Part shown: in pieces, positions 13,935 through 40,539 of the stretch
How the letters are laid out: the number at the start of each line of letters is the position of its first letter
How positions within the stretch are numbered: the stretch's first letter is position 1
NCBI GenBank assembly: GCA_035998445.1
Contig: DASYHQ010000008.1
Coordinates: forward strand, 186,001 to 250,000
Origin: Tepidisphaeraceae bacterium
GTDB taxonomy: Bacteria > Planctomycetota > Phycisphaerae > Tepidisphaerales > Tepidisphaeraceae
Reading direction: 5' to 3'
Length of the DNA: 64,000 bases
The notes under the pieces: generated by a model
Databases searched by the model: none
Told to the model about the DNA's origin: nothing
The model's input: only the letters and a program-made list of their open reading frames with translations
Translations under genes and position numbers: made by a program

Positions 13935-13963
13935 TTGCCCCGCGTCGGCTACTGCGCCCCCTC

Positions 13964-14110
13964 TTCTGTAGGACAGGCATTCCTGCCTGTCTCTCCCCCC
14001 GTCTTGCTCTCTCCCCCCGTATTCTCTCTGTCTTTCTTCTGTGGCACAGGCATTCCTGCCTGTGTCTCTTGTGACTTTTTCTCTTCCAGTGGGGCGGACG
14101 TTTTTGTCTG
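13964..14110. repeat. Repeat family C, composite copy
   Basis: Three related short palindromic units follow one another: GTAGGACAGGCATTCCTGCC, GTGGCACAGGCATTCCTGCC and a variant around GGCGGACGTTTTTGTCTGCC. The same triplet order recurs at 18096-18235. Single ends of the family bound the 29851-30316 element. Confidence 0.85.
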
Positions 14111-14230
14111 CCTCGCAGCACTCGCTGCGATTTCATATGAAGAAGAGAACGGGGCCACCAAACGCCTTGGTGTCGTCCCGAGCGGAGCGCGAAGGTTGTC
14201 GGACAAAATCCCTGCGTTGATAAGGGACAT

Positions 14231-14434: not shown

Positions 14435-17902
<3,468 letters not shown>

Positions 17903-18095
17903 GGCAAATCTCCTTGCGAGCCATCGACTTTTCATCGCTCCGCACGGGCGCGGTTCCGTGGGAATGGACCCGTCCGGGAGCCTAACCGCGTGCGTGTTGC
18001 GAGGCAACGTAATGATGACGCTTCGAATGACGAAAGGGGCGAACACGCCAGCCACTAAAGTGGCGAGCCTTCGGGTTCATCCCAGCGCCCCCACC

Positions 18096-18235
18096 TCTTC
18101 TGTAGGACAGGCATTCCTGCCTGTCTCTCCCCCGTCTTCATCTCCCCCCGTATTCTGTGGCACAGGTATTCTTGCCTGTGTCTCTTCTGCCTTTCACTTC
18201 TACCAGCGGGACGAACATTCTTGTCTGCCTCTCTT
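18096..18235. repeat. Repeat family C, second composite copy
   Basis: The same ordered triplet as at 13964: GTAGGACAGGCATTCCTGCC, then GTGGCACAGGTATTCTTGCC, then GGACGAACATTCTTGTCTGCC. It lies just upstream of the divergent PEP-carboxykinase-like gene and runs straight into the long repeat at 18255. Confidence 0.85.
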
Positions 18236-18254
18236 CCTTTGCGTTGCGCATCCA

Positions 18255-18545
18255 TCAACAGCATTCAAGAGACGCGAAGGCGCGAAGCCACGAAGGATAC
18301 GCGAAGAAAAACGTAACCCGATGTCCCGGCGGCGGTTTGGGTAAGCGAAAACGCGAAATCGTGCACCATTATGCACCATTTTGCGCCATCGCCTGAGTGA
18401 GACCGGGACCAACTCGGTCCCGCACACCAGCCATTCACTTGTCAAAGAACACACTATCCATCTCTACGCTCGCGCTGCGCAATTAAGCTCGATCCGGCGC
18501 AACGCCCTTCGCGCCTCCTTCGCGCCTCCTTCGCGCCTTCGCGTC
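18255..18545. repeat. Long non-coding repeat, copy 1 (about 290 bp)
   Basis: The block starts with GAGACGCGAAGGCGCGAAG. It contains GGTTTGGGTAAGCGAAAACG, three GCACCAT-type direct motifs (18361-18385) and CACTATCCATCTCTACGC, and ends with CTTCGCGCCTTCGCGTCTC. The same series in the same order is found at 29916-30193. No open frame is shared between the two copies, so it is non-coding DNA or an RNA. Confidence 0.85.
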
Positions 18546-18645
18546 TCTGCCTCCCCCCGCCCACCACAAAGAATCCCCCCAACATTGCCCGCAGCGGCAA
18601 CACCGTCCGCCCCGCGTGATATGATGAACAGGCGAGGTCCCCATC

Positions 18646-21600
18646 ATGAGCCAACTGTCCCAACATCCCGCGTTGCTGCAGATCGAGGACACGCTGGACC
18701 TCATCGGCCAGCGGTACCGCGTTCACCGCATGGCCCGTGGTGCGGTGCTGTTCGGCGCGACCGTGGTCCTGGCGACCGTGGCGCTGGCGTTCTTCGCCCA
18801 CGCGACCGAGCCCGGCTCGCGGCTGGCGTACGTGGCGCTGCCGGTCTGGTTGATCGTCGTGATCGGCGCAGCCGTCGCGTGGGTCCTGCGGCCACTGCTG
18901 ATCCGGCCGCGCTCGCTGGAGGTGGCCCGGCTCGTCGAGTCGCGCGTGCCGGACCTGCACAACGGTCTGACGAACGGCCTGCTGCTGACCCAGCGGGACG
19001 ACCTAGCGGACAACCCGTGGCTGCCGTCGGTGTTGGACGAGATCGTTCAGAGCACCCGCGGCGCCTCGCCGGAGTCGGCCGTGACGTTCGCCGACGTGAA
19101 ACGGCTGGCGATCACGCTGTCGTACGCCGTCGTGCCCGCATTGCTGCTGGTGGCGATCTTCTCGGGTTCATTCGCGCACGGCTTTGCGCAGATGTGGTCA
19201 CCGGCGGCGTTCGTGCCAATCGAGGGGGATGCGAAAATCATCTCCGTGCTGCCGGGCGACACGACGCTCGTGCAGGGCCAGCCATTAGAGATCGTCGTGC
19301 TCGCCGAGGCCGCCGCCGACGCGCCGGCGCACGTCATCTTCGATTCCGGCGTGCCACGGGCCGAGGTGATCGGGTCGCCGGCCGAGGATGGCATCGTGCG
19401 CTACACGTATCGCGTCGACCATGTCGATTCGACGCTGAAGTACCGAATCGAGATCGCCCGCACGCAGAGCGCATGGTACGTGGCGAATGTGGTGCAACAG
19501 GTAAAGCTGACGAACCTGTCGCTGCGCATCGCCCCGCCGAGTTATACGAAGCCAGAGCCGGAATCGATCGTGATGACGATTAAGCCGGAAGACCTCGGCA
19601 AGGCGCCGGTGGAGGTGCTGCAGGGCAGTTCGGTCGACCTGTCGATCGGCATCGACGTGCCCGTGGCCGGCGGCATATTGCAGGTGGACGGCGCGTCGCC
19701 GATCGCCATGAGCCGGTCGGACGATGGCCGGCAGTTCAACGGGTCGACCGTGCTGCTGCACGATGCCCAACTGGCGGCGTTGCTGACGGAGACGGGTGGG
19801 CAGATTGTCGCCCGCCTGCCCGACCCGGCGTTGCCGATCACGGTGAAGCCCGACGCCGCGCCGACGATCGAGGTGAAGTGGCCAACCACCGAGACTGCGG
19901 TCGCGCCGGACGCGGAAGTGAAGGTCGTCGCCAAGGCGAGCGACGACGTCGGCCTGTCGACCGTGCGCGTGCTGATGGCGACCTCCGCCGGCGGCCCACT
20001 CACGAGCGTGTTCGAAAAGACGGTCAGCGACTCGGCCGCGGTGTTCGATTTGGCGCAGGCGATCGACATCAAGCCCGAGTACCGCAAGCACGGCTCGTCG
20101 GTGCGCCTGCAGATTGAAGCGGTCGACAACCGCAACCTGATCGGCCTCATCGACAACGGCGGCCCGCAGACGACGCAGTCGCCGATCTACGAGATCAAGT
20201 TCCGCGACCCCGCCCAGATCGCCGCCGACGAAAAGGAAGCCAGCGACAAGCTGCGCGAGATTCTGACAGAACTGCTGCGCCAGCAGAACGCGTTGCACAC
20301 CACGACCACCATCCTGAAGCCCGAGGACATCGCCGGCATGGCGAAGGTGGGCACGGGTCAGGCGCAGCTGGCGGTTACCATGCAGCAGACGGCCGACACC
20401 TTTAAGTTCAACCCGGACGATACGGTTGTTCAGAAGACGCTGATCGTGCTCGCGACGGGCCCGGCGAAGGACGCGATCGACCTCACGGCGGCGTTTCCGA
20501 CCGAACCGGTGATGAAGGAGCGCGCCCGCCTCAGCCTGGACCTGCAAACGCGCCAGCGGCGGATCATCAGCACGCTGGAAAGCTTGCTGGCCCTGCTGAA
20601 CAAGTCGCCCGAGCCCACCACGGCCCCGGCAGCCAAGGAAGGGGGCGATCTGCCGAACAAGGTCGATGCGCTGAAGAAGCTGAACGAGGATCTGAAAGAG
20701 TTCATGAAGGAACAGCAGCGCATCCTCGATCAGACCACCAACCTGGCAAAGAAGCCGGTCGATAACTTCGACGAGAAGGACAAGAAGCTGCTCGACGAGC
20801 TGCTAATGAGCCAGGAAAAGCTGGACGCCTTCATGCAGCAGAAGGTCAGCGATTTTTCCAAGCTGGCCGAGCAGGACATGAGCAACGCCACGCTGCTGAA
20901 GGAACTGATGGAGGTCTACAGCGAGGTGACGATGGCCAAGGACGGCTTAAAGAAGCAGGCCATGGAGATCGCCGTGGCCGCGGAGGATGCGGGGCTGGAA
21001 CTGGCCAGCGAGATCACGAGCAACCTTGAGAAATGGCTGTTGGAAAATCCCGATCGCGTGAAGTGGACGCAGGAAGAGCTGCTGGACAAGCAGGACGTGC
21101 CGATGGCCGAGCTGCCGACCGAGTTGGAAGACATGATCGGCGAGCTGATGGAAGAGCAGGAGGATCTGTTCGAGGACGTGGAGGACATGAACGCGAACAT
21201 GACCGACAGCCTCGACAAGGGCGCCGGCTGGGACGCCGCCGACGGGCCGATCGCCAACATGAGCGCCAAGGGCGTTACCGGCAACACGCTGCCGAACAAC
21301 AACGAAATGGGTGGTCGTGCCGGTGAGGGGCGCAGCGGCAAGTCGCAGGGCGAGTTCGTCGAGGATAACGCGACCGGCAAGGGTGGCCGTAATACGCCAA
21401 CGCGGCTCGACCCCACGGCGTTCCAGCAAGGTCAGATCAACGACACCAGTAAGGACCCCGTCGGTGGCGCCACGGGTGGGGGCAAGATGAGCGGCCAAGG
21501 TGGCGAAGGTTTAGAGGGCCCGGTGCCGCCGGGTGTGTCGGCGGAGATGAAGCGGCTGGCGCAGAAGCAGGCCCAGATCCGCAACGCCGCCGAGCGGCTC

Positions 21601-21909
21601 AACCTGCAGTACCAGCTTGGCCGGTACGACAACTTCAAGCTCACGCAGGCGACCGCCCTAATGCGGCGGGTTGAGTCCGACCTGAATGCCAACCGCTACG
21701 ACACCGCATTGCGCCGCCGCGACGTGCTGCTGGATTCGATCGACACTTCACACTTGCTGCTATCCGGCGAGATCAGCGTCCAACACGACACCAGCCCGGT
21801 CGCCACCCGCAAGTCGCAGGAACAACTCAACAACGCCATGAACGGCGACCTGCCGGCGGCGTGGAGCGATGCGCTGAAGACGTATTACAAGAAGCTGGGG
21901 GCGGAGTGA
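18646..21909 (+). CDS. Large membrane-anchored DUF4175-like protein
   Basis: This 1087-residue protein has three N-terminal membrane helices (about residues 33-52, 60-80 and 145-170, including VLFGATVVLATVALAFFAHA). A long extracytoplasmic part follows with Ig-like strands (SVLPGDTTLVQGQPLEIVVLAEAA; PPSYTKPEPESI). Next comes an extended coiled coil (about 520-850: DEKEASDKLREILTELLRQQ, KLNEDLKEFMKEQQRILDQ, acidic EEQEDLFEDVEDMN), then a Gly/Asn-rich linker and a helical C-terminus. This matches the DUF4175 type found beside MoxR/DUF58/BatA clusters in planctomycetes; that cluster is not in the window. The role is unknown, perhaps structural at the envelope. ATG 18646 is preceded by a weak GAGG. 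Confidence 0.88.
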   Translation: MSQLSQHPALLQIEDTLDLIGQRYRVHRMARGAVLFGATVVLATVALAFFAHATEPGSRLAYVALPVWLIVVIGAAVAWVLRPLLIRPRSLEVARLVESRVPDLHNGLTNGLLLTQRDDLADNPWLPSVLDEIVQSTRGASPESAVTFADVKRLAITLSYAVVPALLLVAIFSGSFAHGFAQMWSPAAFVPIEGDAKIISVLPGDTTLVQGQPLEIVVLAEAAADAPAHVIFDSGVPRAEVIGSPAEDGIVRYTYRVDHVDSTLKYRIEIARTQSAWYVANVVQQVKLTNLSLRIAPPSYTKPEPESIVMTIKPEDLGKAPVEVLQGSSVDLSIGIDVPVAGGILQVDGASPIAMSRSDDGRQFNGSTVLLHDAQLAALLTETGGQIVARLPDPALPITVKPDAAPTIEVKWPTTETAVAPDAEVKVVAKASDDVGLSTVRVLMATSAGGPLTSVFEKTVSDSAAVFDLAQAIDIKPEYRKHGSSVRLQIEAVDNRNLIGLIDNGGPQTTQSPIYEIKFRDPAQIAADEKEASDKLREILTELLRQQNALHTTTTILKPEDIAGMAKVGTGQAQLAVTMQQTADTFKFNPDDTVVQKTLIVLATGPAKDAIDLTAAFPTEPVMKERARLSLDLQTRQRRIISTLESLLALLNKSPEPTTAPAAKEGGDLPNKVDALKKLNEDLKEFMKEQQRILDQTTNLAKKPVDNFDEKDKKLLDELLMSQEKLDAFMQQKVSDFSKLAEQDMSNATLLKELMEVYSEVTMAKDGLKKQAMEIAVAAEDAGLELASEITSNLEKWLLENPDRVKWTQEELLDKQDVPMAELPTELEDMIGELMEEQEDLFEDVEDMNANMTDSLDKGAGWDAADGPIANMSAKGVTGNTLPNNNEMGGRAGEGRSGKSQGEFVEDNATGKGGRNTPTRLDPTAFQQGQINDTSKDPVGGATGGGKMSGQGGEGLEGPVPPGVSAEMKRLAQKQAQIRNAAERLNLQYQLGRYDNFKLTQATALMRRVESDLNANRYDTALRRRDVLLDSIDTSHLLLSGEISVQHDTSPVATRKSQEQLNNAMNGDLPAAWSDALKTYYKKLGAE

Positions 21910-29828: not shown

Positions 29829-29850
29829 GGGCCAAGGCGAGTTCCCCCGA

Positions 29851-30316
29851 CTTCTGTAGGACAGGCATTCCTGCCTGTCTCTCTGCGGGATCGTTGCGCC
29901 TCGTTTAATTCAAAAGAGACGCGAAGGCGCGAAGGTACGAAGCCGTCGCAAAGGATATCCTGCAACCCGAAGCCGCGCCGGTGGTTTGGGTAAGGCAAAA
30001 CGCGAAATCGCGCACCATTCTGCACCATTTTGCACCATCGGCCGTCCCGTCCAATGAGCTGGCCGCCGCTATTCGGTTGTCAAAGAGCACGCTATCCATC
30101 TCTACGCCCGCGCTGCGCGATTCAGGCGTGATTGGCGCAACAACCACGGCCTTTCTTCGTGTCCGTCTTCGCGCCTTCGCGCCTTCGCGTCTCTTTTCTG
30201 CTGATGGAGGCGCGACGCAAAGAGAGACAGACAAGAATGCCTGTGCCACAGAAGACCGAATACGGGGGGAGATTAAGACGGGGGACAGACAGGCAGGAAT
30301 GCCTGTCCTACAGAAG
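29851..30316. repeat. 466-bp composite element with perfect 30-bp terminal inverted repeats
   Basis: The left end (29851-29880, CTTCTGTAGGACAGGCATTC...) and right end (30287-30316) are perfect inverted copies of a family C unit. Inside lies the second copy of the long repeat seen at 18255. It is itself bounded by GAGACGCGAAGGCGCGAAG (29916) and its mirror (30175-30193). No open frame in it looks like a protein. The right end stops 6 bp before the stop codon of the DegT-type gene. Confidence 0.9.
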
Positions 30317-30322
30317 AGCGCT

Positions 30323-36988: not shown

Positions 36989-37000
36989 TGATCTTTGACA
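36989..37000 (+). promoter_or_regulatory. boxA-like antitermination element
   Basis: TGATCTTTGACA resembles boxA elements of rRNA leaders and 16S-23S spacers. It is followed directly by AGTGAATACGAGGTTCG (37001-37017), which is complementary to CGAACCTCGTAATTCACT downstream of the 23S gene (40369-40386) apart from one bulge. Confidence 0.6.
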
Positions 37001-37341
37001 AGTGAATACGAGGTTCGAGTTGATTTCTTCAGAATCAACTAGAACTCCGCGACGTCCGGCCCCATTTTGATGGTCTTTCCGATGCCGGACGTCGTCGAGC
37101 ACCTTTTTGGCGATTAGGGTGTGAAATACACACCCGCAAATGAGTCACTTCGCAAGTGACTGTTTGGATGACCATAGTCGATTGTTTGTTCCGTTACTGG
37201 CACGCCCGCCAGTGTTAGGACCGAGAGTTAGTTCCTCTCCGGTGCGACCTGTTCCTCTCTTCGTGCACGTTTGACGGAGCTTGGACTGGAAGCTGAAGGG
37301 CTGGTATCCGAGTAATTCGGAGCGGTTTCAATCTTAACGTG

Positions 37342-37359: not shown

Positions 37360-37367
<8 letters not shown>
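37342..37367 (+). other. 5' arm of the 23S rRNA processing stem
   Basis: ACGGTGATCGATAAA...GGTCAAGT (26 nt) pairs with 40220-40245 with only two mismatched positions in the middle. The pair brackets the mature 23S ends, as expected for an RNase III stem. Confidence 0.85.
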
Positions 37368-40219
<2,852 letters not shown>

Positions 40220-40229
<10 letters not shown>

Positions 40230-40428: not shown

Positions 40429-40539
40429 CGTTGGTGGCTATATCCTCAGGGTCACACCCGTTCCCATTCCGAACACGGTCGTTAAGCCTGCGGAGCCGAT
40501 GATACTGCTTCAGCGGGAAAGTAGGTCACTGCCAGCGTT
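40429..40539 (+). rRNA. rrf: 5S ribosomal RNA
   Basis: The sequence has the conserved 5S core: GGTGGCTATATCCTCAGGGTCACACCCGTTCCCATTCCGAACACGGTCGTTAAGCCTGCGGAGCCGATGATACTGC...CGGGAAAGTAGGTCACTGCC. The 5' and 3' ends (GTTGGTGGC / CACTGCCAGC) pair through a helix I with G-U pairs. It lies 200 bp after the 23S gene and just before a strong terminator. The ends are accurate to a few bases. Confidence 0.95.

Follow-up and report, generated by a model that had tools for sequence, protein, structure and literature searches.

A putative long REPIN-like element with nested REP shells and a boxA-bearing core in a member of the Tepidisphaeraceae

The element at positions 29850..30317 of the analysed window (the whole stretch of 64 kb, G000:C8:186001-250000, where G000 is the genome of origin) is probably a long REPIN-like, non-autonomous member of a REP/RAYT system, whose ends, named C, would be moved in trans by a RAYT encoded on contig C64. 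It is placed with REP/RAYT systems because it pairs with a RAYT that shares its ends.

Both ends match the C motif without mismatches and are in inverted orientation, in agreement with the original prediction. The left C REP is located at 29856..29879 on the plus strand and the right one at 30288..30311 on the minus strand. The end sequence is TCTTCT-GTAG-GACAGGCA-TTCC-TGCCTGTC, where GTAG stands immediately 5' of a perfect 8-bp stem with a 4-nt loop. The predicted 466-bp unit with perfect 30-bp inverted ends was recovered as arms of 33 nt (29851-29883 and 30284-30316) with one mismatch, the outer 30 nt being perfect. These arms enclose another inverted repeat, R, and a core of approximately 180 bp. 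The R arms are 34 nt long (GAGACGCGAAGGCGCGAAG at 29912..29945 on the plus strand, and 30164..30197 on the minus strand) and coincide with the inverted ends of the inner block described earlier. The core, delimited in an alignment of 68 copies (29965..30141, read on the minus strand), consists of a TTGCGC dyad, GTAGAGATGGATAGCGTG, a boxA, a linker of fixed length, 10-bp repeats, and TTGCCTTACCCAAACC. The boxA TCTTTGACAACCGAATA (30070..30086, minus strand) is common to the 23S and 16S rRNA leaders. The tandem motifs noted earlier within the block are three direct repeats TGCACCATTN with a period of 10 bp (30011..30039, plus strand). The right arm also retains an older shell, a g REP with a GTGG tag (30226..30249, minus strand, two mismatches to the g motif), whose partner in the left arm is lost. 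With up to three mismatches, the C motif has five sites in the window and none in 100 dinucleotide shuffles; the window contains 33 inverted-repeat pairs, compared with 0-1 in the shuffles. Folded as single-stranded DNA, the 466 nt yield z = -9.6. The original prediction had not recognised the ends as REPs, and it had missed the nested shells including the right g REP, the boxA, the location between convergent genes, and a third C arm in the window.

This third, isolated C-g-t arm has no core (13962..14112, plus strand). The core itself is present again at 18255-18545, as had been stated, the shared segments D14 and D18 having 87% and 86% identity. The true start of this second copy is another C end at 18096, and the copy covers 18096..18547: C 18096-18125, g 18157-18180, t 18206-18229, R 18269-18287, the core with boxA TCTTTGACAAGTGAATG (18432..18448, minus strand), and R 18529-18547. 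Its right g and C ends are missing.

The exact C motif occurs at 149 sites in the genome, compared with none for the reversed control. Copies of the element are dispersed in the genome and comprise at least 67 cores, with C on both sides in 41 cases, on one side in 16, and on neither in 10. Most copies are 440-670 bp long, and the 45 elements running from C to C have lengths of 228-772 bp with a median of 595. At 125 C ends, selected with at most one mismatch, pairwise identity drops from 0.95-0.99 inside to the background level of 0.27-0.30 outside the boundary TCTTCT|GTAG, and the window copy has the same sharp boundary. The alignment of the recent duplicates L010 and L023 (95.6% identity over 596 bp) and that of a second pair, L010 and L029 (88% identity), end at the C ends of L010 or a few bases from them. 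Therefore the amplified unit is the segment from C to C. No target-site duplication was observed, as the flanks match over 3 bp or more in none of the 45 C-C elements. No paralogous empty sites of C elements were found in the one genome that represents the genus. Most of the copies are old, as their neutral parts are nearly saturated, and mobility may be low at present. The claim that no open frame is conserved holds: no frame is open in all 68 cores, and a coding element was rejected for this reason; the best frame is open in 41 of 68, in a sequence that offers few opportunities for stop codons. C REPs are uncommon in the class, being present in 4 of the 198 genomes sampled, and genome G136 contains canonical C REPINs of about 100 bp without the core. 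In one core copy (L259:600-1220) a T-family REPIN is inserted into the linker between the boxA and the 10-bp repeats.

Each arm may carry up to three related REPs, t, g and C, in a fixed order. Among 105 REP-bearing sides, the order outward from the core is t-g-C in 50, gC in 17, tC in 15 and C in 8, and nearly all have C as the outermost REP. Per-site divergence increases inward (C 3.4%, g 9.9%, t 17.6%), and the numbers of intact stem pairs out of eight are 7.8, 7.2 and 6.0, respectively. This gradient could arise in two ways: either the shells were acquired one after another, or the outermost pair alone is constrained or homogenised near the cut site. We infer that the g and t shells were earlier ends. 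The C ends would then enclose relics of two older REP generations, the unrelated inverted repeat R, and the core. When 136 sides were scored with no threshold fixed beforehand, 81 carried a perfect C and 14 a one-off C, about 30 had none, and intermediates were few; ends that are either perfect or absent are not explained by simple decay following insertion.

Contig C18 of the same genome contains at least five more REPIN families (M, 110 bp; V/v, 88 bp; E, 50 bp; P, 87-190 bp; T, 50 bp) arranged as regular inverted pairs. An exact mismatch scan of the whole contig found 47 of 99 multi-unit clusters to be perfectly palindromic in order. One E REPIN is centred in the palindrome GGACCTATGCACTTGACGA, the empty form of which is seen at L099:1200-1288 (compared with L044, L041, L081 and L277); this is nesting in palindrome centres.

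Eight Y1_Tnp matches were found in the genome. One of them, C64:27715-28179, is bracketed exactly by C+ and C-, with arms of 43 bp, and thus the search for a transposase with the same ends, suggested along with the original prediction, identified a RAYT at C64:27.7-28.2 kb. It matches NF047646 (REP-associated tyrosine transposase) at 2.5e-21 and Y1_Tnp at 2.8e-8. The NF047646 score is 76.1 bits over model positions 8-144 of 146, the curated cut-off being 80 bits, and the HUH signature is kept in the form HVH. Its open frame is continuous with that of the 3' end of a ThiE-like gene (thiE), and its only candidate start is TTG, without a clear Shine-Dalgarno sequence. A search of PDB sequences with this RAYT gave no match. 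The closest relative found, 47% identical, comes from another genus (G003) and has three C-type REPs on each side. This gene (G003:C487, L346) seems to occupy the same kind of position at the end of thiE as the C64 gene (L034), and a C-type REPtron at the thiE 3' end in two genera suggests vertical inheritance. At least four other Y1 genes of the genome are each bracketed by their own inverted-repeat family, namely M, T and two more. A second RAYT (G000:C58:2061-2363; L035, L351), whose REP ends belong to the M family, resides in frame inside a DinG-like helicase gene, whose frame stays open through the insert and encodes 927 aa.

The C64 RAYT, of the single-strand HUH/Y1 class, most likely recognises the C REP hairpins on single-stranded DNA beside GTAG. 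We infer that it moves the copies described here, and it would mobilise them in trans with no target duplication. The original prediction had left the choice between a non-autonomous mobile element and a structured RNA. The former reading is supported by the dispersed copies, the duplicates, the sharp ends and the RAYT, which is its likely partner. A conventional MITE, with the C ends serving as terminal inverted repeats of an unrelated DDE-type transposase, would also have inverted ends, many copies and no coding capacity. It is highly improbable given the complete lack of target-site duplications among the C-C elements, ends that are GTAG-tagged hairpins, and a RAYT with the same ends in two genera.

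The core skeleton, that is, the boxA and the 10-bp direct repeats, has identity of 0.89-0.98 among the 68 copies, compared with 0.45 in the linker. The linker is 39-40 nt long in 62 of 68 cores despite free variation of its sequence. Dead-on-arrival copies would not retain a rigid skeleton and a fixed linker length. The rRNA-type boxA motif TTCTTTGACAAGTGAATA, with up to three mismatches, has three sites in the window compared with zero expected: two belong to the elements and one to the 23S leader (36991..37008, plus strand), 352 bp upstream of the 23S gene (37360-40229). The 16S leader of the same genome also contains the motif. The 23S and 5S (40430-40537) genes of the window have no linked 16S gene, and a single 16S gene was found on contig C39. 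A short boxA pattern searched across the genome contigs produced mostly chance matches. In rRNA leaders, boxA is a site for Nus factors (PMC4807359). The element has the same sequence as that upstream of the 16S and 23S genes of this genome, but in a repeated intergenic unit with no rRNA downstream. The core is predicted to act in transcription; it is probably a separate, older kind of intergenic module that in this lineage became surrounded by REP shells and spread along with them.

BoxA-headed modules without C ends, followed by other short repeats, are repeated in G008 (about 75) and G021 (19), both Phycisphaerae MAGs related to the window genome, and in smaller numbers elsewhere. These modules may be homologous to the core beyond the boxA and the layout. 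In G008, G004, G142 and G160 (L061-L130, L325-L339), a repeated intergenic arrangement of a TATA-like motif or dyad, a boxA and tandem repeats of 7-11 bp was observed, the tandem repeats differing between copies and genomes. In JAGXTA01, identical boxA-led starts of an IS-transposase-like gene occur in several copies, often at contig ends (L132, L153, L157, L165, L191, L203, L210). As far as we found, the boxA-headed intergenic modules of several Phycisphaerae are undescribed in the literature.

Core copies are located mainly in gaps between convergent genes (43 of 60; 17 tandem, none divergent), compared with 13 convergent among 78 core-free gaps of 400-3000 bp (p 4.5e-11), the gene calls being crude and made from ORFs and GC3 bias. 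C elements without the core are in convergent gaps in 6 cases of 15, and M, P and E REPINs are near the baseline. In the window, the 30-kb copy occupies a convergent gap. The 18-kb copy, which is outside the 60-copy sample, lies between divergent ORFs (14435-18055, minus strand, and 18646-21909, plus strand). Core-like modules are in convergent gaps in 4 of 5 cases in G021 versus 1 of 16 in G008, and several G021 copies begin no more than tens of bases from a stop codon.

One explanation is that the element marks a boundary between convergent genes, as a bidirectional 3'-end or transcription-collision element held by selection rather than mobility. We consider this unlikely. It would agree with the location of the core copies as compared with that of core-less C elements and other REPINs, with the G021 modules, and with C ends that are perfect or absent. 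However, tolerance of a large insertion could create the same bias without any function, as a 600-bp insert is least harmful to operons and promoters between convergent genes; moreover, the divergent setting of the 18-kb copy and the G008 modules do not fit, and no intrinsic terminator motif was seen. Alternatively, the copies could be a family of non-coding RNA genes, with a promoter and boxA leader on the minus strand of the core, an antitermination-protected transcript, and arms acting as processing or termination hairpins. A boxA like that of rRNA leaders in nearly every copy, a TATA-like motif and a dyad located 5' of the boxA in the related genomes G021 and G008, and the constant skeleton with a variable linker are consistent with it. 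On the other hand, compensatory changes affect 1 of 20 predicted pairs in the 68 cores and the covariation term is -0.38 kcal/mol, Rfam contains no match to the element, and complementarity of the arms is barely higher within copies than between them. Further, there is no clear -10/-35 in G000, and in convergent gaps the transcript would enter the neighbouring gene in antisense. This makes an RNA gene doubtful, and the structured-RNA half of the original prediction is not supported for the core: as covariation is absent, the constraint on the core looks like one on sequence and spacing, not on RNA folding. Copy-specific co-variation of the arms, tried as a separate candidate, was weak, an arm's own partner being the best one in at most 5 of 68 copies.

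The preferred reading, a long REPIN-like element with a partner RAYT, can be compared with known systems. REPINs are inverted REP doublets that measure about 70-110 bp and have a simple spacer (Bertels and Rainey 2011, PMC3116915). The element likewise has two inverted GTAG-tagged REPs with the tags outward, is dispersed, and is accompanied in the genome by a cognate RAYT with the same REP on its flanks. However, it is about 230-770 bp long, approximately five times longer, and thus is not a canonical REPIN; it also has up to three REP shells per side and a conserved boxA-bearing cargo. A RAYT between inverted REPs is the arrangement of REPtrons, or TnpAREP with group 3 REPs, and GTAG directly before a perfect palindrome makes the C REP similar to REP Sm (PMC8266576, PMC3733652). 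Here, however, the host is a planctomycete, and the window element is a gene-less companion of the REPtron. The "double inverted repeats" of P. putida and P. fluorescens, present in hundreds of copies, combine a REP with an unrelated stem-loop (PMC3733652). They too join REP units to other inverted repeats, whereas the shells of the element are successive versions of one REP that surround a conserved core in a fixed order. Similar mosaics of nested palindromic repeats are formed by BIMEs and by ISs inserted in REPs (PMC1525189), but the nested units of the element are REPINs and a conserved module, with no ISs. The combination of layered REP shells and a boxA cargo is new relative to these systems.

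A tentative extension is that the element is a layered vehicle, to which t, then g, then C, as consecutive generations of a single RAYT/REP lineage, each supplied new outer ends. The REP generations would have left growth rings, and the cargo, a boxA with helically spaced protein sites, would be a selected transcription module between convergent genes that is spread by the RAYT. These observations bear on two open questions, the way in which REPs spread and the reason for which hosts retain RAYTs. One genome offers many large REP-bounded copies, a probable RAYT, three ordered REP generations and a cargo bearing a transcription signal. REPINs would be more than miniature parasites if RAYTs transport regulatory cargo.
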